DNA from: an uncultured Bacteroidia bacterium
Lineage (GTDB): Bacteria > Bacteroidota > Bacteroidia > Bacteroidales > F082
Assembly: GCA_902774365.1 (NCBI GenBank)
Contig: CACYHX010000021.1
Location: forward strand, 1-43,304
DNA length: 43,304 nucleotides
Reading direction: 5' to 3'
The notes under the pieces: model-generated
The model's input: the letters and a program-made list of their open reading frames with translations, nothing else
The model's database searches: none
What the model was told of the DNA's origin: nothing
Part shown: positions 3,672 to 23,116 of the stretch, in pieces
How the letters are laid out: each line of letters opens with the position of its first letter
Numbering within the stretch: the first letter of the stretch is position 1
Made by a program: the position numbers and the translations under genes

Positions 3672-4973
3672 ATGAAGAGAAATTGTTTTACCATCTCATC
3701 AATCTGCCTGTTGGCAGTGATGTTGTTCACGGCTTGCACCCAACAGTTTCCGGGGTACAAGAAAACGGAAAGCGGTTTGTATTACAAGTTTTACAGCCAC
3801 AACACGACGGCTCCAAAGCCTAATCAGACCGATGTCATGAAAGTTGCCATGACGTGCTATCTTCACGATTCAGTCTATTTTGATTTCCAAAAGACTGAAA
3901 GTGAGGTATATGCACAGCTGAAGGAGTCGGTGTTTCCTGCCGACTTAAACGAAGCCTACACCATGATGCATCTTGGTGACTCGGCATCGTTCTATATCAA
4001 GGCCGACTCGGTAGCCATCAAGTATTACGATAAAAACCCCGAGGAGGTCGGGCTGAAACCTGAAGATTATTTCCGTTATGAAGTGAAGCTGCTTGAAATC
4101 AAGACTTTGGAAGAGTTTCAAGCGGAAATCGACAGGTTGAACAAAGCTATGTGTGAACATGCTAAGCAAGAGTTCAATGACTACGTTGAAACGAACCTCG
4201 TTGGCGTAGCGCCTGAATCTTGTGGGGTTTATGTCATCCCGATGGAACCAGGCAAAGGCCCTTGCCCCAAGAAAGGGGATAAGGTCGAGCTTGACTTTTC
4301 CGCCTCGTTGCTCAACGGCCAGTTCGTAGGCTCTACTTACGACCGTCCCGACAAGTTTTCCTTCGTCTTGGGCGAGGGTTATGCCATTCAAGCATGGGAA
4401 GAGATTGTGCCGAAGATGCATCTCGGCGAGCGTGTGAAAGCCATCATCCCCTTCGAGTTGGCTTATGGAGAACATGCTGTAGGCTCGATTCCTGCTTATT
4501 CCAACCTGATTTATGAAATCAAGTTGTTGAAAATCACCCCAAAAGAAGAGCTTCAAGCCGAAGCAGAAAAAGCCTTGGCAGCCTTGAAGGAGGAGTCGAA
4601 AAAGGCCTTTGACGATTATGTTGCAACCAATGGCATCGTCGACCACACGCCTTCAGGATTGTATTATACCAAGTCGTTGGTGACCGATGGCGCCGCGCCC
4701 GAAGAAGGCAAGCATGTCCACATCAAGTTTTTGGCCACCTACCTTGACGGCACGCTCTTGGGCAGCTCCGATGATCTGGAGGGAGATTTCAAGGTGTTGT
4801 TTGGCAGTGGTACCCTCCTGAAAGGCTTGGAAGAGGGGATAGGCTTGATGCATGTGGGCGAAAAGGCCCGTTTTGTGTTGCCTTATACGTTGGCGTATGG
4901 CGAGCAACCCTTCAATAACATCCCGGGCTGCTCCAACCTCGTCTTTGACGTTGAATTACTTGGAATAGAATAA
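3672..4973 (+). CDS. Multi-domain FKBP-like lipoprotein
   Basis: 433 aa, SPII signal (MLFTACTQQ). After the lipobox comes a PGYKKTESGLYYKFY block shared with the next two proteins, then three FKBP-like units: about residues 20-140 (very degenerate), 165-290, and 310-433. Units two and three end in the typical FKBP strands LIYEIKLLKI and LVFDVELLGI and keep the LAYGE loop. Only the second unit retains the pocket Trp (AIQAWEE). The FD pair is VG or LG, so canonical proline isomerisation is doubtful. Helical linkers rich in Glu/Lys join the units. It starts 3 nt after the previous stop in the same operon. Likely a periplasm-facing chaperone-like protein. Confidence 0.8.
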   Translation: MKRNCFTISSICLLAVMLFTACTQQFPGYKKTESGLYYKFYSHNTTAPKPNQTDVMKVAMTCYLHDSVYFDFQKTESEVYAQLKESVFPADLNEAYTMMHLGDSASFYIKADSVAIKYYDKNPEEVGLKPEDYFRYEVKLLEIKTLEEFQAEIDRLNKAMCEHAKQEFNDYVETNLVGVAPESCGVYVIPMEPGKGPCPKKGDKVELDFSASLLNGQFVGSTYDRPDKFSFVLGEGYAIQAWEEIVPKMHLGERVKAIIPFELAYGEHAVGSIPAYSNLIYEIKLLKITPKEELQAEAEKALAALKEESKKAFDDYVATNGIVDHTPSGLYYTKSLVTDGAAPEEGKHVHIKFLATYLDGTLLGSSDDLEGDFKVLFGSGTLLKGLEEGIGLMHVGEKARFVLPYTLAYGEQPFNNIPGCSNLVFDVELLGIE

Positions 4974-5000
4974 TTTACAATATCAAAACACTAAATTAAA

Positions 5001-5918
5001 ATGAAAAAGAGTATCGTTATGTTGGCCGCTATGGCCATGATGATGTTGGGCACTATGAGTGCTTGTGCCGAGAAGAACCCTTATCCGGGTTACGAGAAGA
5101 ACCAAAACGGTTTGTATTACCAATTCTTCAGCCAAAATGAAGGCGAATTGCCGCAAGTTGGCGACCTGATCGAATTGAAGATTTGCTGCATGATCAACGA
5201 CACCACGCCGCTGATTCCCAACACGCAGAACATGATGAAGTTGCAGGAACCTGCTTTCCCTGGCGACCTCAACGAAGGTTTGGCCATGATGCACAAGGGC
5301 GACTCCGCCTCGTTCATCGTCAACACCGACTCCACGTTCAAGTATATGTTCATGCAGCCCACGCTACCTGCTGAATTCAACTCCACCGACGTCATGCGTT
5401 TCGAGATTAAGGTGGTTGACTTCATGCCCGAGAAGGTGTATGCCCAGAACTTCGCCAACGACGTGAAGAACAGGAATGCCGTGCGTATCACCCAGCTGCA
5501 AAACGACCATCCCGAAGAGACCGCCAAGGCCGCTAAGGAACTGGCCGAATATCTGGCTAATAACAAGATTGAAGCCGTGCCTACCGAGACGGGCCTCTAT
5601 TATGTGGTGACCGAACCCGGCAACGGCGAGAAACCCGAGGTGGGCAAACCCGTCACGATGCACTACACCGGCAAGCTGCTCAACGGCACCGTCTTCGACT
5701 CTTCGGTGGAGAGAAACCAGCCTTTCCAGTTCGTCCTTGGCGTCGGTCAGGTCATCCCTGGCTGGGACGAAGGCGTGCAACTGATGACGAAGGGCGAGAA
5801 GGGCCTGCTTTACATCCCTTATTATCTGGCCTATGGCGAGAGAGACATGGGTGACATTCCTCCGTTCTCCAACCTGATTTTTGAAGTCGAACTGATTGAT
5901 TTCGAAACTTTTGAATAA
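5001..5918 (+). CDS. FKBP-type peptidyl-prolyl isomerase lipoprotein with intact active site
   Basis: 305 aa, SPII signal ending GTMSAC. Residues about 25-150 are a degenerate FKBP-like unit sharing the PGYEKNQNGLYYQFF block with its neighbours. A helical linker (about 150-185) is rich in Ala/Lys/Glu. Residues about 190-303 form a complete FKBP domain retaining the expected pocket residues: HYTG (Tyr), VFDSS (Phe-Asp), FQFVLG, QVIPGW (Val-Ile and Trp), LAYG (Tyr) and IFEVEL (Phe). Of the operon's FKBP-like domains this is the only one with the full set, so it is the probable catalytic member for proline isomerisation in the periplasm. The N-linker plus C-FKBP layout resembles Mip/FkpA, though here with a lipid anchor. 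Confidence 0.9.
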   Translation: MKKSIVMLAAMAMMMLGTMSACAEKNPYPGYEKNQNGLYYQFFSQNEGELPQVGDLIELKICCMINDTTPLIPNTQNMMKLQEPAFPGDLNEGLAMMHKGDSASFIVNTDSTFKYMFMQPTLPAEFNSTDVMRFEIKVVDFMPEKVYAQNFANDVKNRNAVRITQLQNDHPEETAKAAKELAEYLANNKIEAVPTETGLYYVVTEPGNGEKPEVGKPVTMHYTGKLLNGTVFDSSVERNQPFQFVLGVGQVIPGWDEGVQLMTKGEKGLLYIPYYLAYGERDMGDIPPFSNLIFEVELIDFETFE

Positions 5919-5919
5919 G

Positions 5920-7230
5920 ATGAAACGTCTTATCGGCTGGGCTTCCGTACTTTCCGTGTTCTTGGCGCTTACCTCGTGCCACGACGACTCCATCTATGCG
6001 GGCTTCAAGAAGACGGAAAGCGGGGCCTATATGAAGTTTTACACCCATAACGAAGGCCAGCAGCCTCGCCTCAACGACGAGGTGACCTTCGAGATGGCGC
6101 AGGTCTTCAACGACTCGCTGCTGTTTACCACGGCTGGCAATGAGCCTATGCAACTCGTCTTGAAGAAAGGCGATTTCGTCGGCGACGTGCCCGACGCCCT
6201 GCTGATGATGCATGTGGGCGACTCGGCGCGGCTGGTGGTGTCGGTCGACTCGGTGCTGACCAGCATGCTCGGCATGGAAGAGGTGCCTGAGGAATATGTC
6301 GGCAAGCCTATCTACTATGACCTGAAGTTGCTCGGCATCAAGCCTTTCGAGGAGCTGGAAGCCGAACGTAAAGTGCTGATGGAGAGTCTGAAACAAGAGG
6401 AAATCGACTTCTTGGCGCCATTGGTCCTCGACCCGAAGCATACCGTGACCGAGTCGGGTCTTATCCTCATGGAGAAGACCGGCAACGGCAAGGTGGCCCG
6501 CATGGGCGACTATGTCGACTTCGACTTCACCATTTGCAGCCCCAAGGGCGACACCATCATGAACTCGTTTGGCGTGGAGCCTGTCGTGATGCAGTACGGC
6601 GAGGAGTTCATCAGCAAGGGCTTCAACGAGGCCCTCGGCATGGTGCCCGAAGGCGGCACGATGCGTCTTGTCATCCCTTCCGAGCTGGCCTTCGACAGCA
6701 CGGGCTACGCACAGTATATCCCGCCTTATACGCCGCTGATCGTCTTGATGAAGATGAACAGCGTGATGGACAAGGCGGCCTACGACAAGCGTCAGGCCGA
6801 AGCGGAAGCCGCCAAGGAGGCGGAAGCGGAGCGCATGATGGCCGCTGAGGCCGTGCGCATCGCCAACTACGTCAAAGCCAACGGCATCACCGAAACGCCC
6901 ACGGAGTCGGGTATCTACATCATCCGCCAGGAAGAGGGTGAGGGCAACGTGGCGCAGTGGGGCGACGAGGTGTCGGTGCACTACATCCTAAGCAACCTCG
7001 ACGGCGACATGGTGGACTCGAGCTACGAGTACGGCGAGCCGATGCAATTCACCATTGGCAAGGGCGAGATGATACCTGCCATCGAAGAGGCCTTGATGAC
7101 CATGGCACCGGGTGCCAAGGCCACCGTGGTTTCACCATCATCGCAGGGCTTTGGCGACATCGCTATCAACGAGAAGATGCCGGCCTATTCGCCGATCGTC
7201 ATCGAGCTGGAGCTGGTGGAAATCAAGTAA
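5920..7230 (+). CDS. Multi-domain FKBP-like lipoprotein, last gene of the operon
   Basis: 436 aa, SPII signal (FLALTSC). The start is the ATG one base after the preceding stop; an in-frame upstream ATG lies inside the previous gene. Three FKBP-like units are seen: about residues 20-140 (shared AGFKKTESGAYMKFY block), 165-280 and 320-436. An Ala/Glu-rich coiled segment (KRQAEAEAAKEAEAERMMAAEA) precedes the last. Pocket residues are poorly kept: the last unit has Tyr (VHYILS) and VDSS but Ala in place of Trp (MIPAIEEA), and the second has Phe in the Trp place. Probably a binding or chaperone module rather than an efficient isomerase. The bidirectional terminator at 7274-7305 closes the operon. 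Confidence 0.8.
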   Translation: MKRLIGWASVLSVFLALTSCHDDSIYAGFKKTESGAYMKFYTHNEGQQPRLNDEVTFEMAQVFNDSLLFTTAGNEPMQLVLKKGDFVGDVPDALLMMHVGDSARLVVSVDSVLTSMLGMEEVPEEYVGKPIYYDLKLLGIKPFEELEAERKVLMESLKQEEIDFLAPLVLDPKHTVTESGLILMEKTGNGKVARMGDYVDFDFTICSPKGDTIMNSFGVEPVVMQYGEEFISKGFNEALGMVPEGGTMRLVIPSELAFDSTGYAQYIPPYTPLIVLMKMNSVMDKAAYDKRQAEAEAAKEAEAERMMAAEAVRIANYVKANGITETPTESGIYIIRQEEGEGNVAQWGDEVSVHYILSNLDGDMVDSSYEYGEPMQFTIGKGEMIPAIEEALMTMAPGAKATVVSPSSQGFGDIAINEKMPAYSPIVIELELVEIK

Positions 7231-16863: not shown

Positions 16864-16935
16864 TTACATATTCACAAAGACAATTCCTTCAAACTTGCCA
16901 GTGCTGACATTGATGGTTATCTGCAAGGTTATGAT
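16864..16935 (-). pseudogene. C-terminal remnant of an LpoB/CsgG-like paralogue
   Basis: Read on the minus strand, the frame ending with TAA at 16864-16866 gives LQITINVSTGKFEGIVFVNM. This is clearly related to the final residues of the two intact paralogues (VQVVNVSTGEFEGNVTVNL and VQVVNVSTGEYEGNATVNF). Nothing of the rest of the gene is present; the fic gene takes over at 16929. It is therefore a leftover of a third tandem copy, cut off where fic begins. Confidence 0.6.
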
Positions 16936-17999
16936 TTGGTCCCAAACCCTGTAACGGTATAAGATCTGATGCGCTGTTTCACCAAATTGGGCTTGAGGAA
17001 ACCGTTTTTCACTAATGCCAAGCTCCAGTTAATGATGGTGCGGTTGCTGACTTTCATCCGTTCCGCCATTTCAGAAGGCGTGAATGTATCGATGTGATTG
17101 CGAGAAAGATAGTCCAAGAATGCCTTCTCTTTGGCATTGAGGAAAGACCGTGATGCCGCCGATTGTTCTTTGATGGAAGCTGAGGCTAATTCCACCACTT
17201 TTTTGGCGTGAAGTTCCACCATGCGAAGGAAATAATGCAGCCAGATTTCGGGATGAGGCGGGTTGTCGCGACCGTCATAGTACAAAGGTGGCAAACCCAT
17301 CTGCAAGGAGGCATAATACTCGTCCACATCGTAGGCAAAATATTCCTCCAACGACCCGATTTGGTTGAAGCCGTAACCATAAAAATCCAGCACGTAATCG
17401 GAGAGGATGCGTGCCGTGCGACCGTTGCCATCTTCAAAGGGGTGGGTGGTAACCATCTGATAATGAACCACGGCGGCTTTCAGCAAGGGATGGTCATCGG
17501 ATTCGTTTACATAGGCGATTAATTCTTCCAATAAAGGCAAAATGTCATCGCTTATCGGGGGAATATATTCCGCTTGATGGGTGGCTTCATCATACACGGC
17601 GAACAAAACGCCGGGCGGCATGGGACCGCGAATGCCTATTTTTTCCTCACTTTCACCTTGAACGACTTGTCGCTGCAAAGCCATAATCAATTCCAAGGAA
17701 AAAGGCTTTCGCTCTTTCAAATAGCGCTCCGACAGTTCTAAGGCGGCAAAATAGTTGCGTACTTCCTGCTCTGGCTTGAGGAAATGCCTGCTTTTCGCTT
17801 CGATGGCAGCGTTGGATTGCTCCTCCGTAAGCGGATTGCCCTCAATCTGCGTTGAAGCATAGGAACTTTTCTTCTTTGAGCTTTTCCGCAATTTATTGGT
17901 CAAAGACAAGGGCATCTTGCAGGTGCCGAAATGTGTCCTGCACTCCTCAATGGAAAGGATTCTGTTGAGCATCTCGTTGGTAAGTGTGACTTTTATCAT
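16929..17999 (-). CDS. Fic family protein with C-terminal winged helix
   Basis: 356 aa. The Fic motif HPFEDGNGRTAR is complete, with the catalytic His and phosphate-binding Arg, so AMP transfer (or another nucleotide transfer) is possible. The N-terminal part carries the inhibitory motif STQIEG (S/TxxxE-G/N type), the Glu of which normally blocks ATP binding in autoinhibited Fic proteins. The flap region GVLFAVYDEATHQAEYIPP is present. The C-terminus (about 285-350) is a winged-helix HTH (FTPSEMAERMKVSNRTIINWSL), typical of Fic proteins that also act as regulators. The start at 17999 was chosen because three TTTCACTA repeats lie directly upstream. The gene sits between a remnant and intact copies of the LpoB-like family. 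Confidence 0.88.
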   Translation of the reverse strand: MIKVTLTNEMLNRILSIEECRTHFGTCKMPLSLTNKLRKSSKKKSSYASTQIEGNPLTEEQSNAAIEAKSRHFLKPEQEVRNYFAALELSERYLKERKPFSLELIMALQRQVVQGESEEKIGIRGPMPPGVLFAVYDEATHQAEYIPPISDDILPLLEELIAYVNESDDHPLLKAAVVHYQMVTTHPFEDGNGRTARILSDYVLDFYGYGFNQIGSLEEYFAYDVDEYYASLQMGLPPLYYDGRDNPPHPEIWLHYFLRMVELHAKKVVELASASIKEQSAASRSFLNAKEKAFLDYLSRNHIDTFTPSEMAERMKVSNRTIINWSLALVKNGFLKPNLVKQRIRSYTVTGFGTKS

Positions 18000-18004
18000 T
18001 GAAA

Positions 18005-18114
18005 TTTCACTATTTTTTTCACTAAATTTCACTAATTATTTTTTTATTATATTGTTATTCTGAAAATTACATAATGAAAAACAAAACTGATTTGATATTG
18101 CTAAAATAGTGAAA
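18005..18114. promoter_or_regulatory. Operator-like array of TTTCACTA repeats upstream of fic
   Basis: TTTCACTA occurs at 18005-18012, 18017-18024 and 18027-18034, and inverted (TAGTGAAA) at 18107-18114. The first copy is 6 nt from the fic start. Clustered perfect octamers in front of a gene with its own winged-helix domain suggest autoregulation. Inference only. Confidence 0.5.
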
Positions 18115-18194: not shown

Positions 18195-18878
18195 TTACAA
18201 ATTCACCGTTACATTCCCCTCAAACTCACCGGTGCTGACATTGACGACTTGCACCTGAATGTATTCCTCGGTGATGCGGGCACTGATGAAGTAGCCTACT
18301 GCAGAGAAGTTGTTGCCTTCTACTGTGGTTTCTTCATTGTAGATGCCGCTCTGCTGGCCTTGCTGCTCCTTGTAGAGTTTCTGCAAATGCTCCTTGGCCA
18401 CCACCTTGTAGCCTTTGCCCAAGAGGTAATCTACGATTTGGCCTTTGGTCTTCTCCTTGTCGGTTTGGCCGTCGGTGATGGTAAGCTTGTCCAAGGCGAA
18501 GCGATTGCCTTCGTCTATCTCGCGCGTGGCTTGGCTGATAGCCTCAAACAGGTGCTGTGCCACCAGACCGGGCAGTTCTACCACGGTGTAGGTGTAGTAA
18601 TGCGACACCGAGCCGTCGCCGTTGACCTTCACATCGCTTTCCTTGAGGTTGCGGATGCCGACCTCCTTGTTGGGGTGGGCTTGCTTGGCCTCGCGCAATG
18701 CGGCTTTGTAGGCAGCCTGATAACTGTCGTAGCCCTTTTTGGTGCGCGTGCTTTTGGTGAGTACCGTTTCCTTGGCTTGCGGTGCCTTTTGTGCGCGGTT
18801 GCAGTCTTCCTGCGCCATGGCCTTGCCCAAGCCAAGCAGCAGGGCAAGAGCCAGAATGATGATTCTTGTTGCTTTCAT
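18195..18878 (-). CDS. Secreted LpoB/CsgG-like protein, paralogue 1
   Basis: 227 aa with a Sec signal peptide (ILALALLLGLGKAMAQ). The start was placed at the ATG giving a compact signal peptide rather than 16 residues upstream. The C-terminal half (about 110-227) resembles the CsgG/LpoB fold: VDYLLGKGYKVVAKEHLQKLYKEQQ, then QSGIYNEETTVEGNNFSAVGYFISARI, and VQVVNVSTGEFEGNVTVNL. Such domains form periplasmic or outer-membrane assemblies (CsgG pore, LpoB activator), but this protein lacks a lipobox Cys, so the exact role is unknown. It is the last gene of a leftward group with paralogue 2, the CSC-repeat peptide and the radical SAM enzyme, closed by the terminator at 18142-18173. Confidence 0.7.
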   Translation of the reverse strand: MKATRIIILALALLLGLGKAMAQEDCNRAQKAPQAKETVLTKSTRTKKGYDSYQAAYKAALREAKQAHPNKEVGIRNLKESDVKVNGDGSVSHYYTYTVVELPGLVAQHLFEAISQATREIDEGNRFALDKLTITDGQTDKEKTKGQIVDYLLGKGYKVVAKEHLQKLYKEQQGQQSGIYNEETTVEGNNFSAVGYFISARITEEYIQVQVVNVSTGEFEGNVTVNL

Positions 18879-19001: not shown

Positions 19002-19670
19002 CTAGAAGTTTACCGTTGCGTTGCCTTCATATTCTCCTGTGCTTACATTGACCACCTGCACCCGCAGTGAGGTTTCCGTGACCTTCACATTGATGTAGTA
19101 GCCCACGGCGGAGAAGTTGTTGTCCTGCACGGTTGTATTGTCATTGTAAATGCCGCTTTGTTGGGCTTGCTGCTCTTCGTAAAGTTTATCAAGGTAATCC
19201 TTGGCGATGACCTTGTAACCTTTATCCAGCAGCAAATCCAACAGTTGGTCTTTGAGGTTTTCTTTTTCCATTGAGTAGGGGACAGACACTTGGTCTATTG
19301 CCAATCTTGAGCCTTCACGAACATTGCGAAGGGCTTTGTTGAGGGCTTGGGGAAGATTGCCGTATGCTTTCATTTCTGGATCTCGCAAATCCACTACTTT
19401 ACCAATGGCTGGACCACTATAGTAATTTGTTCCACAAGAGTTCCCTGCTTTAATTTCTCTTATGTCTATTTCTTTGTCTGGATACTGTTGTCGTGCTTTA
19501 TCCAATAGTATTATATAATAATTTTGGTAATCTCTACAATTATCTGTAGTTCCCCATGAGACAGTTCCTATTACTTTTTCATTCGCTTTAGGCGCATTTA
19601 AGTAATCTTGTGCATAAACTCCCATGCACATCATCAAAGACATTATTGTCGTTAAAAGTACTTTTTTCAT
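19002..19670 (-). CDS. Secreted LpoB/CsgG-like protein, paralogue 2
   Basis: 222 aa, Sec signal peptide (LLTTIMSLMMCMGVYAQ). The C-terminal about 110 residues align closely with paralogue 1: LLDLLLDKGYKVIAKDYLDKLYEEQQAQQSGIYNDNTTVQ, then SAVGYYINVKVTETSLRVQVVNVSTGEYEGNATVNF. The N-terminal parts differ apart from scattered positions, so the duplication is old or the N-termini are specialised. The resemblance to CsgG/LpoB is in the helix-strand order and the Gln-Ser-Gly-Ile-Tyr segment; this is family-level inference. No promoter is visible in the 39-nt gap to the CSC-repeat peptide upstream, so co-transcription with it is likely. This places a secreted protein directly behind a putative modified peptide. 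Confidence 0.7.
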   Translation of the reverse strand: MKKVLLTTIMSLMMCMGVYAQDYLNAPKANEKVIGTVSWGTTDNCRDYQNYYIILLDKARQQYPDKEIDIREIKAGNSCGTNYYSGPAIGKVVDLRDPEMKAYGNLPQALNKALRNVREGSRLAIDQVSVPYSMEKENLKDQLLDLLLDKGYKVIAKDYLDKLYEEQQAQQSGIYNDNTTVQDNNFSAVGYYINVKVTETSLRVQVVNVSTGEYEGNATVNF

Positions 19671-19709
19671 TTTGTTTAGGTTTTAGTTGTTAGTTTTTGC
19701 TTTGTTGAT

Positions 19710-19937
19710 TTAGTGACTAATCGACCCTGTGCAAGTGTCAAATGGGCCATTCTCACCATCCCAAGAGCATTGATTATCGCAACTGCATTGATAGTCACAA
19801 CTACATTGGTATTCACAGGAACATTGATTGTCGCAAGAGCATTGGTTATCACAAGAGCAGTTGCGAATGCCCATTTTAGAAACACTGTTTTGGGTCCCAC
19901 CCCAAATGCCATAATCGGCGTTACTAATTATTCTCAT
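19710..19937 (-). CDS. Cys-rich tandem-repeat peptide, candidate RiPP precursor
   Basis: 75 aa. A leader-like part (1-26, with GG at 13-14) is followed by five perfect-length hexapeptides CSC[DE][NY]Q (residues 27-56), a sixth degenerate unit CSWDGE, and a tail with one more Cys (69). Twelve Cys in total, all after residue 26. The repeats are encoded by 18-nt units (19752-19859). The start codon lies inside the last codons of the radical SAM gene (14-nt overlap), pointing to translational coupling. A small repetitive Cys peptide directly after a SPASM enzyme is the typical arrangement of sactipeptide or ranthipeptide precursors, in which Cys thiols are linked to neighbouring residues. A metal-binding peptide is the alternative. 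I do not recognise a described family. Confidence 0.75.
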   Translation of the reverse strand: MRIISNADYGIWGGTQNSVSKMGIRNCSCDNQCSCDNQCSCEYQCSCDYQCSCDNQCSWDGENGPFDTCTGSISH

Positions 19938-21228
19938 AGTTATCTGTTTTTAGGTTTACATTTTTGTCTAATAAGGTTAATAATGAGAAGTCAAGGACGT
20001 TCAACTTTAAATTGCAGTAATTTTCATCTGTGTTTGTTTTTTGTGCTGCTCTGCAACCTCCTTGACATAGTGGTAGAACAACACAATTATTACATTTTTC
20101 TTGCAAAACGGGATTGCACCATTCCACAAACTGTTTTGATAATTCTAATTGTTGATGGACATTTCCCACAGATTTTGATTTATCTTTCATGTCCATCGAG
20201 CATTTGAAAAAATCTCCGTTTGCGTTGATTACGAAACTATTTGGCAATACAGCAAAGCAACCAGTAGTTCTTCTTGTATTTATATCATGTTTTGGATTGT
20301 AAAAACCATTCTCCAATAGTGATCGTATTATGATGCTGTTGTAAAGAGCGACTTCCTCATTTTTTATAATACCATCTAAAGAATCATCCGGCCTATTAAA
20401 TATTGGGTATGCGTAACAATGTAAATGGTTATTTCCGACATATTTTGTTCTGATATATGGAATTAGAGTTAGAATGTCTTTCACATTGTTTCTGTCATAG
20501 TTTAATCGGATTGATACATTTATCTCCTTCGCCAACAACTTTTCAATTACATCCAGAGTCTTCTCAAAGGAATTTGGATAGTTTGTGTAATTCTTCCTTC
20601 TTTCATGTTCTTCTTTCATGCCATCCATAGTGACTTGAACATTGCTGATTTTCCATTGTGTTTTTGCTATTTCAATCAAATCATCAGAGAACAAAGAAGC
20701 ATTCGTAATCAGTGAAGAGTGTATTTTCGTTTTAGATTCCTTAAGCCCTTCCATGACATCATGACTGATTGCCGTGATAACTTTAGGGTTTAATAGAGGC
20801 TCACCACCAAACCAATTTAGTGTAATGGATTGTTTGTTTTTTGAGTTGTTTACGATGAAACGGGAAACAGCTTTTGCTGTATCCATATTCATAGTACTTC
20901 TTTCGTAATTCTCTTCATAACAATAAAAACATCTTGCATTACAGCATGTTGTAGTAAGAATTCTATATACTGCGGTGTTCTTTGTAAAGGTGTCACGGAA
21001 TCTACAATAATTCACTAATTCGGTTTCATTGATTGAAGCCTCAATAATAAGTCCCAATCGTATCCATTCCTCAATTATTGCTTCTTCTATGTTGGTATCT
21101 TCAAAGTTGAGCAATTTGGTATACTCTGAATCATCAAGTAAAACCAAAGCCCCTGAAAAGGTATTGAAAACAATTGCCTTGCCATCTTTAGCTTTGTAGA
21201 TGTTGTATCGAGACAATTTGTATTTCAT
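19924..21228 (-). CDS. Radical SAM/SPASM peptide maturase
   Basis: 434 aa from the ATG at 21226-21228, chosen because a -7 box lies at 21260-21267, inside the longer frame. N-terminal region (1-75, YNIYKAKDGKAIVFNTFSGALVLLD) resembles the peptide-recognition part of RiPP maturases. The radical SAM cluster motif is CNARCFYC (Cys 96, 100, 103), GGEP at 141-144 binds SAM. The C-terminus has a complete SPASM pattern: C324-x13-G-x4-C343, then C379-x2-C382-x5-C388-x3-C392, and C405, for two auxiliary 4Fe-4S clusters. Enzymes with this layout install thioether or other crosslinks in peptides, or act as sulfatase maturases; no sulfatase is nearby, whereas a Cys-repeat peptide overlaps its 3' end. The DNA is much more AT-rich than the flanks, suggesting transfer. 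Confidence 0.9.
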   Translation of the reverse strand: MKYKLSRYNIYKAKDGKAIVFNTFSGALVLLDDSEYTKLLNFEDTNIEEAIIEEWIRLGLIIEASINETELVNYCRFRDTFTKNTAVYRILTTTCCNARCFYCYEENYERSTMNMDTAKAVSRFIVNNSKNKQSITLNWFGGEPLLNPKVITAISHDVMEGLKESKTKIHSSLITNASLFSDDLIEIAKTQWKISNVQVTMDGMKEEHERRKNYTNYPNSFEKTLDVIEKLLAKEINVSIRLNYDRNNVKDILTLIPYIRTKYVGNNHLHCYAYPIFNRPDDSLDGIIKNEEVALYNSIIIRSLLENGFYNPKHDINTRRTTGCFAVLPNSFVINANGDFFKCSMDMKDKSKSVGNVHQQLELSKQFVEWCNPVLQEKCNNCVVLPLCQGGCRAAQKTNTDENYCNLKLNVLDFSLLTLLDKNVNLKTDNYENN

Positions 21229-21501: not shown

Positions 21502-21813
21502 TTAATTGCTCTCTTTTAACAAGTCAGCCAATCGAAGGACGGTTTCAGGACTTAGGTTGTCCAAATGAATGGTGAACGATGGTGCCTGGGGAATCAGGCC
21601 ATAATGCTCCTCAACATCGGACAAGAAATTGTGCTTCAGCACCAAGGAGATTTTGGCCAGTTGAATGGAATCAACACTTTGACGTTCAAAGAGGCTGTAA
21701 ACCGTGGTGCGCTCCAAGTGGATTTGCCTCGCAAACTCTGATATGGTCATCCCGCTCTCGTCGAAGACAGCTTTGATCATTTGTCCGATATGTAGAGTTT
21801 CTTGCGTGGCCAT
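21502..21813 (-). CDS. Small HTH DNA-binding protein (XRE-like)
   Basis: 103 aa. Residues about 8-60 form an HTH: IGQMIKAVFDESGMTISEFARQIHLERTTVYSLFERQSVDSIQLAKISLVL, with the recognition helix around LERTTVYSLF. The remainder (ILIPQAPSFTIHLDNLSPETVLRLADLLKE-like) ends in a helical tail. Proteins of this kind are frequent in Bacteroidota next to mobile or defence genes; its target is unknown. A perfect 6-bp inverted repeat, TGTCAT-N7-ATGACA, lies 8 nt before the start and is a candidate autoregulatory operator. It is transcribed away from the Abi gene, with the structured region 21859-21997 between them. Confidence 0.75.
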   Translation of the reverse strand: MATQETLHIGQMIKAVFDESGMTISEFARQIHLERTTVYSLFERQSVDSIQLAKISLVLKHNFLSDVEEHYGLIPQAPSFTIHLDNLSPETVLRLADLLKESN

Positions 21814-22222: not shown

Positions 22223-23116
22223 ATGGCACACTATACAAAGATATACTCATCGCCTACCCAATTGGCAGCTTTGCTCCATTCACGTGGCCTTATCCTTGGA
22301 GATGAAGCGAGAGCAAAAGACTATCTCAAACATATTGGGTATTATCGATTCAGCGCATATTTGTACCCGCTTCTGACAATGCCTAAAGAGAACCATGTAT
22401 TCAAAAGCGGATCTACCTTCGACAATGCATTAGACATGTATCGCTTTGATAGGCACCTTCGCTTGTTGATGTTCAACCAGATTGAAAAGATTGAGGTCGC
22501 GGTGAGAAGTGCCATCGTGAATATCACAAGCCGAGAGACTGGTAATCCTTTTTGGATGACCGACCCGACTTGCTTTTACGATGCCGTACAATTCACAAAG
22601 ACCAAGCAACTGATTGATGCCGAGCTGGCCAAATCAAGGGAGGAATTCATTGAGCATTATCGAAGAACTTATTCCGAACTTTATCCTCCAGCATGGATGT
22701 TAGCGGAGATACTGCCTTTAGGCGTAATGACCAAGATATACGAAAACATCAGAAGCAACCAAATCAGGAAGATGATTGCCCAAGAGTTTTCGTTGAACGT
22801 ACCAGTGTTCATGTCATGGATGACTATCATTACGGTAACACGCAACAATTGCTGTCACCATGCCCGCGTTTGGAACCGAACGTTCGCTTTAAGAGCTTTG
22901 ACTATGCGCCGAATGACACGCCCTTGGATCTCAACTCCTATAAACCAACAGAAAGTGTATTTCAGTCTTTGTGTTATTAAGTATTTCCTCAATATCATTT
23001 CGCCCAATAATGATATGACAACGAAACTCCAATCCTTGTTTAAGGACTATCCGACCATTGACACTAATGCAATGGGGATTCCTGCGGGTTGGGAACAAGA
23101 GGCCTTGTGGCAGTAG
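22223..23116 (+). CDS. Abi_2 (AbiD/AbiF) family HEPN protein
   Basis: 297 aa, normal length for the family. The start region (YTKIYSSPTQLAALLHSRGLIL, then AKDYLKHIGYYRFSAYLYPL) and the RFDRHLRLLMFNQIEKIEVAVRSAI block are typical of Abi_2 proteins. The HEPN nuclease motif RxxxxH is present as RNNCCH (Arg207-His212), followed by HARVWNR. The C-terminus (YFSLCVIKYFLNIISPNND, then GIPAGWEQEALWQ) also matches. Such proteins are abortive-infection toxins that cut RNA when phage infection disturbs their control; they are proposed relatives of Cas13 ancestors. It is preceded by its own promoter and a hairpin RNA, the layout of an RNA-controlled toxin. Stand-alone otherwise; the next gene is convergent. 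Confidence 0.9.
   Translation: MAHYTKIYSSPTQLAALLHSRGLILGDEARAKDYLKHIGYYRFSAYLYPLLTMPKENHVFKSGSTFDNALDMYRFDRHLRLLMFNQIEKIEVAVRSAIVNITSRETGNPFWMTDPTCFYDAVQFTKTKQLIDAELAKSREEFIEHYRRTYSELYPPAWMLAEILPLGVMTKIYENIRSNQIRKMIAQEFSLNVPVFMSWMTIITVTRNNCCHHARVWNRTFALRALTMRRMTRPWISTPINQQKVYFSLCVIKYFLNIISPNNDMTTKLQSLFKDYPTIDTNAMGIPAGWEQEALWQ

Follow-up and report, generated by a model that had tools for sequence, protein, structure and literature searches.

The window (the whole 43,304-nucleotide stretch of DNA that was analysed) carries a gene for a radical SAM/SPASM peptide maturase and a small gene for a Cys-rich repeat peptide, which overlap by 14 nt (19924-19937). Table 1 lists the features of the locus. 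A possible regulatory gene lies upstream and two genes for probably secreted proteins follow downstream; the CsgG/LpoB label of these proteins finds no PDB support by profile (best E 0.8). A Fic-domain gene (16929-18032) and an Abi_2 (abortive-infection-like) gene (22223-23116) flank the locus, as in a small accessory island.

Table 1. Features at the locus in the window, and phage-encoded Cys-rich proteins compared with them (positions are those of the sequence named; for the phage contigs they take in the adjoining radical SAM gene).
Feature	Sequence	Position	Strand	Basis or remark
Radical SAM/SPASM peptide maturase, 434 aa	Window	19924..21228	minus	ORF, family models, motif check
N-terminal extension of the maturase, residues 1-85	Window			bbb-aaa element order, as in RiPP recognition elements; low-confidence model
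Precursor peptide, 75 aa	Window	19710..19937	minus	ORF, profile, codon comparison
Precursor leader, residues 1-26, conserved N-A-x-Y-G-I-W-x-G	Window	19860..19937	minus	Alignment
Precursor core, residues 27-62: five CSC[DE][NY]Q hexads + CSWDGE	Window	19752..19859	minus	Tandem repeat, motif check, shuffles
Cro/XRE-type HTH protein, possible regulator	Window	21502..21813	minus	Sub-threshold Pfam matches; conserved upstream of both cassette types
222-aa protein, signal-peptide-like N-terminus, conserved next gene	Window	19002..19670	minus	CsgG/LpoB-like by sub-threshold matches only
Second protein, related to the 222-aa protein and of the same kind	Window	18195..18878	minus	The Met at 18878 is where its homologues begin
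Cys-rich protein, 316 aa, 61 Cys	L124 (L123 is the same contig)	4908-6927		35-nt overlap with radical SAM gene
Cys-rich protein, 364 aa, 81 Cys	L131	284-2620		
Cys-rich proteins, about 140-165 aa	L140; L158; L150	6165-8154; 5099-7085; 12635-13477		Alike in kind
Cys-rich proteins, 192 and 202 aa	L167	2729-7344		Among five radical SAM-like genes
357-aa frame with Cys-rich end	L173	1422-3499		Overlapped by enzyme frame

The maturase start was placed at the ATG at 21228, the M1 common to both homologues, and the frame is open further upstream (GTG 21369). The radical SAM motif CxxxCxxC is at residues 96/100/103, and the SPASM cysteines are arranged as C324-x13-G-x4-C343, C379-x2-C382-x5-C388-x3-C392 and C405. 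Every motif given in an earlier reading of this DNA (the sequence-only reading) was verified, and the two marks of the radical SAM/SPASM superfamily, CxxxCxxC and a full set of SPASM cysteines, are both present. The protein scores 51.4 bits against TIGR04085 (cut-off 27), 52.8 against Pfam Radical_SAM and 14.7 against the Pfam SPASM model, below its cut-off of 21.5. Its N-terminal part has no Pfam match at E <= 1, and the element order resembling RiPP recognition elements is read from an AlphaFold model of low confidence (mean pLDDT 48.9); this model and that of the CsgG-like protein (46.9) are poor, with alignments of 3 and 4 rows.

The precursor has the leader sequence MRIISNADYGIWGGTQNSVSKMGIRN, and the first of its 12 Cys is residue 27. 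The core reads CSCDNQ CSCDNQ CSCEYQ CSCDYQ CSCDNQ CSWDGE, with the five intact units at residues 27-56, and the tail adds one more Cys. A 75-aa precursor that starts in the last codons of the maturase and has five hexads, a degenerate unit and 12 Cys had been read correctly from the start. The DNA under the core is an 18-nt tandem array (19758-19859) of 5.7 copies with only a 75% match, so drift has gone further in the DNA than in the repeat at protein level. C-x-C-[DE] occurs five times in the core against 0.5 expected from 2000 shuffles (p <= 0.0005), and plain C-x-C (5 against 2.8 expected) is not significant (p 0.097). The precursor has no Pfam match at E <= 1 and no NCBIfam match, CefA included, and a word search of the open-access literature yielded no description of CSC[DE] hexads among the matches listed, which is weak evidence of absence. 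C-x-C-[DE]-x-x is an added repeat grammar, matched by no NCBIfam or Pfam model above cut-off.

Maturase and precursor recur jointly in two other species of the genus among the genomes searched. Maturase homologues of 72-73% identity bring the count to 3 of 100 genomes, its own included (G000, G002 and G018), and the next-best relative in that search is 30% identical; among 393 genomes of the order, its own apart, no match listed exceeds 139.2 bits (G002 and G018 are absent from those matches). Among 173 genomes of the family it is again these three that the precursor profile matches (E <= 3e-42), and in 395 genomes of the phylum it matches the window's own genome only (G002 and G018 are again absent from the matches listed). 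Weak profile matches in G154, G172 and G178 (E 0.001-0.01) were judged to be chance, with no matching Cys-repeat ORF on inspection. In the same three genomes, then, a small precursor gene lies beside a modifying enzyme and is conserved jointly with it, as in RiPP pairs, and the co-occurrence that the sequence-only reading proposed to look for is found.

The three precursors have 5, 5 and 6 units before CSWDGE, and the first unit in G018 is CWWDNQ. The G002 precursor ends at FDT through a frame difference and lacks the tail, CTGSISH, that the other two have, so the tail Cys is not universal. The precursor frame, whose conservation had been named as a check, is kept in both related genomes, with the C-terminus shortened in this one. 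The 14-nt gene overlap is seen in G018 also, and a 20-nt gap separates the genes in G002. The G018 maturase is split between the ends of two contigs near residue 351 (L036 5803-6108 and L037 6259-7366), with unmatched bases past each break; this may be an insertion or an assembly break.

The core is nearly fixed while the leader drifts, the reverse of a fast-changing bacteriocin. Between the window and G002 there are 12 synonymous and 2 non-synonymous differences over the 40 codons of the core; the residue changes number two in this pair and three in each of the other pairs, falling to 1-2 in 34 codons if the first unit is left out. Core dN is 0.02-0.06 and dS 0.44-1.14 (three sequences, 40 codons) with unit 3 of G018 taken as inserted, an alignment that gives the G018 pairs dS of 0.44 and 0.61; matching the first CSCDNQ of each gene gives these pairs dS of 1.2-1.9. 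In the leader (24 codons) dN/dS is about 0.9-1.5 and in the maturase (351 codons) 0.11-0.16, a contrast that rests on three sequences and in which units have possibly been exchanged within the array.

A near-frozen core, a drifting leader and a varying copy number (5 or 6) together argue that the small ORF is a real gene. It is short and lies above an 18-nt repeat in which other registers are open too, as would be the case if it were an accidental reading of repetitive DNA. However, both related genomes keep the frame, dN is much lower than dS, Ser is encoded by both AGT and TCN codons, and the leader motif is conserved outside the repeat; the accidental reading is scarcely credible. Other-frame ORFs at 19676-19912 (minus) and 19713-20207 (plus) were rejected because it is the 75-aa frame that is conserved in two genomes.

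HTH orthologues of 72-83% identity are present in seven other genomes (99 of the genus searched, its own included). The hexad cassette lies behind the HTH gene in the window, G002 and G018, and a different radical SAM/SPASM cassette lies behind the same gene in G019 (L077 4801-8727, G019:C72) and G171 (L113 5125-7426, G171:C20). The enzymes of this second cassette (rSAM_B) are 86% identical to each other and about 23-25% identical to the window maturase and its homologues, and the G019 copy has GeoRSP as its best model (113.5 bits). Two peptides rich in Cys and Asp, ...CYTCDNCNTCNHNPDGSGCNDCNNCDTCEHCDND and ...CFGCDSCDCNCDSCDSCDCDCDSNW, are encoded in G019, and G171 has matches only to their N-terminal parts. 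This one site is therefore occupied by one or the other of two unrelated maturases, whose peptides resemble each other in composition. No cassette is seen behind the HTH gene in G058, G164 or G050, the last over the 1.5 kb downstream on its contig.

In the window, G002, G018 and G019 the cassette is followed by the two probably secreted proteins, and in G171 by a short remnant; the pair thus stands after 3/3 hexad cassettes and 1/2 cassettes of the other kind; in G030 it is found elsewhere, with no cassette in the stretch examined. Alternation of the cassettes at one site behind the same HTH gene, with the same probably secreted proteins after most of them, suggests a role common to both, and these proteins may be partners or merely neighbours of the cassette. 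Downstream lie short pieces left over from the 3' end of the second of these genes, in the window (16864-16913), L036 (1983-2025, 2149-2169 and 3280-3338), L034 (8654-8725) and L113 (712-808), and small modules lie between remnant and full gene (the Fic gene in the window and, by eye, a RelE-like pair in G018). These remnants may reflect a local duplication or a recombination point. A dispersed repeat derived from this 3' end was considered and rejected, since in five genomes searched the sequence does not occur beyond the locus.

Among NCBIfam families the maturase scores best against CefB (185.9 bits), followed by Clo7bot (172.8), TIGR04463 (167.3), geopeptide (146.3) and PapB (126.4), all far below the curated cut-offs, so that the bond type is not transferable from these families. 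The search against RiPP and radical SAM models advised in the sequence-only reading thus places the enzyme nearest to maturases of Cys repeats, all under cut-off, and leaves the precursor unmatched. That reading would have given way had the enzyme grouped with the sulfatase maturases; this assignment is rejected, the TIGR03942 score being 68.6 bits against a cut-off of 349.45 and against the 185.9 bits for CefB. A PDB sequence search gives 5wgg (CteB) as the sole match at E <= 0.01 (E 1.1e-15), and CteB, a thioether-forming maturase (PMC10352776), also heads the Foldseek list for the low-confidence maturase model.

In a tree of 33 enzymes, in which L056, L007 and L047 are long branches, the window and G002 enzymes (P0002/L034) are sister to L056 of G354 (support 99/96), and this group also takes in the enzymes of G042 and G513 (94/88). 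L056 is 24% identical to the window maturase. The G354 cluster (L179 2667-6588, G354:C23) contains two SPASM-type enzymes, both with PapB as best model (120.3 and 130.7 bits, below cut-off), and between them four small peptides of 37-41 aa: MEVSELIFL...DCGCDDDGGC, METGYVSELVFL...YCECGRE, MQNEYVSNL...GCDCDGDVDEC and MQNEYVSELIL...DCNCDAVDGS. These have a common VS[EN]L leader motif and one C-x-C unit each, the next residue being D in three and G in one, and no NCBIfam match at E <= 0.01. In G042 the enzyme is followed by a 53-aa ORF, a putative gene that starts MRVI like one hexad precursor and ends CSCISEK; farther on in this locus (L038 6448-10477, G042:C18) is an FtsK/SpoIIIE-type ATPase, an unusual neighbourhood for a RiPP enzyme. 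The neighbours listed for the G513 enzyme (L180) include no small Cys-rich ORF.

Joint occurrence, the split into leader and core, and best-scoring models that are peptide maturases uphold the original proposal of a RiPP-type enzyme and precursor, and we regard such a pair as very likely. The three homologues have 19 units, in which position 1 is C throughout (19/19), position 2 is S in 17, T in 1 and W in 1, position 3 is C in 15 and W in 4, position 4 is D in 16 and E in 3, position 5 is N in 12, Y in 4 and G in 3, and position 6 is Q in 16 and E in 3. All four units with Trp for C3 retain C1 and D4. PapB takes Cys-Xn-Asp with n = 0-6 in vitro (PMC9413430), so n = 2 is chemically credible for the hexads, and the reversed order (D..C) gave no product (PMC9413430). 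The retention of C1-x2-D/E4 even in units without C3, together with this order preference, makes C1 to D/E4 the first choice of bond.

The action of the maturase on the precursor, the type and ends of the bond, export and function are what we infer. The enzyme would bind the leader, which drifts but bears a motif (NAxYGIWxG), and would then proceed along the hexad array, joining C1 of each unit to the acidic residue three on (C1-x2-[DE]4) by a ranthipeptide-type thioether to a non-alpha carbon. The result would be a ladder of small rings spaced by N/Y-Q, with C3 either cross-linked as well or kept as a regularly spaced thiol. To such a product of Cys1-Asp/Glu4 thioether rings, predicted from sequence, we give about an even chance; counted against it are the place of PapB, only fifth among the models, and the presence of the pair in three genomes only. 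The immediate neighbours examined include no transporter or protease gene. The strong conservation of the core points to a fixed chemical or structural role rather than to a fast-evolving bacteriocin; as the neighbours are probably secreted, the cell envelope is one example of where such a role might lie. The hexad pair predicts a change of -2 Da per unit, and five or six near-identical units are a good substrate for asking whether the maturase is processive along the array.

The peptide could also be a RiPP with another chemistry in each unit, namely a Cys-alpha bond as in sactipeptides, an upstream acceptor (D4-x2-C1'), a Cys-Asn/Gln bond or a non-thioether radical reaction; TvgB, another repeat-modifying radical SAM enzyme, makes cyclopropylglycine (PMC9062424). 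Asp or Glu stands three residues before C1 in 16/19 units, Gln is at C3 +3 in 15/15, NxxcA joins Cys23 to Asn20 (PMC8326336), and the family model scores do not separate chemistries. We nevertheless hold a different bond to be less likely, since PapB refuses substrates with the Asp before the Cys (PMC9413430), the residues at position 5 (N 12, Y 4, G 3) vary too much for a general acceptor, and C1-x2-[DE] is present in 19/19 units, degenerate ones too.

In a metallothionein-like reading, the C-x-C pairs would hold metal and the enzyme would add few modifications at most or act elsewhere. C-x-C clusters with acidic residues are well suited to metal binding, and the core shows the conservation of a structural function. 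However, the precursor gene overlaps and co-occurs with that of an enzyme whose kind modifies peptides, the leader has its own conserved motif and the peptide lacks any Pfam match at E <= 1, and this reading is improbable. A word search of the literature for a metallothionein-like reading of a radical SAM CXC RiPP returned no paper that combined most of its terms, which neither supports nor excludes it. The Cys-Asp/Glu ladder is the reading that we prefer.

Comparable arrays are found in viral contigs. A DNA pattern for two hexads matched one viral contig, and a looser pattern for three C-x-C-[DE] units matched 55, in seven of which (L124, L131, L140, L150, L158, L167 and L173) a radical SAM gene adjoins the CxC-repeat ORF; many of the others picked by the pattern are simple-repeat DNA (such as CECECE). 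L161 was rejected, as there is no open frame at its pattern match. L166 encodes the same Cys-rich protein as L131, with no radical SAM match in the 4.6 kb examined, and the enzyme frame of L150 runs off the contig stretch examined. Compared with composition shuffles, C-x-C-[DE] is enriched in L124, L158 and both L167 proteins (p <= 0.0005) and in L140 (p 0.019), and L131 has 8 against 4.9 (p 0.10) or, with Asn included, 15 against 7.6 (p 0.0055); these p values overstate the enrichment, as the contigs were picked by the same motif, and adjacency to a radical SAM gene lies outside that selection. L140 is a looser relative, its C-x-C pairs being followed mostly by Ala.

The NCBIfam scan took in the enzymes of four of the seven phage contigs, that of L124 without its first 31 residues. 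PapB is the best model for those of L124 (113.9 bits) and L131 (148.8) and for the two scanned from L167 (183.2 and 159.6), non-members at the cut-off of 340, and the L140 enzyme scores 73.4 bits against geopeptide and 72.8 against PapB. There is a baseplate-type gene in L124 and there are tail-fibre-like matches in L167; the four phage Cys-rich proteins tested have no PHROG match. The window maturase profile has no match in the viral contigs, and a search for relatives of the L124 enzyme gave its own contig only. On the tree, the L124, L131 and L167 enzymes are placed away from the window maturase, which makes convergence or an exchange of modules a more probable source of the similar repeats than shared ancestry. 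We raise as a tentative possibility that C-x-C-[DEN]-x-x recurs as the substrate code of several distinct radical SAM lines (the gut Bacteroidales hexads, the G354 single-unit clusters and the phage arrays). If true, phages would make enzymatically cross-linked "ladder" proteins, possibly tail parts, and the hexad peptides of bacteria would belong to that chemical class as its small representatives. Whether viral proteins are modified by such enzymes is a question that the phage arrays pose.

These phage CxC-repeat proteins resemble the window peptide in having repeated C-x-C adjoining a radical SAM gene and, in four of the six counted, mostly D, E or N after C-x-C, but they are longer, those of their enzymes that the tree includes (L124, L131, L140 and L167) are of other lines, and the neighbourhoods are those of phages in the two contigs checked. 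In SSN Cluster 59, the nearest printed parallel found, a radical SAM enzyme stands beside a peptide in which an Asp-Cys pair is repeated up to six times (PMC9062424); it differs in its Asp-Cys order and recombinase neighbour, the window having a C-x-C-[DE] hexad (PMC9062424). PapA of the PapB system, a ranthipeptide (NF047865), carries six CX3D/E motifs (PMC9413430) and is alike in its tandem Cys...Asp/Glu repeats beside a radical SAM/SPASM enzyme. The CX3D/E spacing is absent from the hexads, however, where C1+4 is N, Y or G and C3+4 is Cys, never acidic, and the window maturase scores 126.4 bits against the PapB cut-off of 340.

Clo7bot (TIGR04334), TIGR04463 and geopeptide (TIGR04280) are the next-best models after CefB, match over nearly the full length and are named peptide or RiPP maturases, but the window maturase is under the cut-off in each case (172.8 against 600 for Clo7bot). 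CefA/CefB (NF038108/NF038107) likewise has a radical SAM/SPASM enzyme beside a small regular-Cys peptide, and CefB is the best-scoring model; however, the score of 185.9 bits falls short of the cut-off of 600, the window Cys are C-x-C with a period of six and not every fifth residue, and NF038108 is unmatched. A link to CefA is given by L046 (G504), the best-scoring relative of the maturase outside the trio in the genomes searched (139.2 bits, 30% identity), which adjoins a CefA-type peptide and on the tree lies outside the group of the window maturase. The Bacteroidales peptide at that locus (L046 1414-3062, G504:C1) scores 53.1 bits against NF038108 (cut-off 30) and so counts as a CefA precursor, and the adjoining enzyme, at 191.2 bits, falls below the 600 required for CefB. 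Radical SAM enzymes that mature Cys repeats of regular spacing already form a catalogued kind, to which the nearest models of the window maturase belong; NCBIfam names include Cys-every-fifth CefA/CefB, Clo7bot and CXXX-repeat. The claim of the sequence-only reading that the peptide is unlike the RiPP classes was therefore too strong as regards the kind, that of radical SAM/SPASM Cys-repeat RiPPs, and stands for the C-x-C-[DE]-x-x hexad, which is new.
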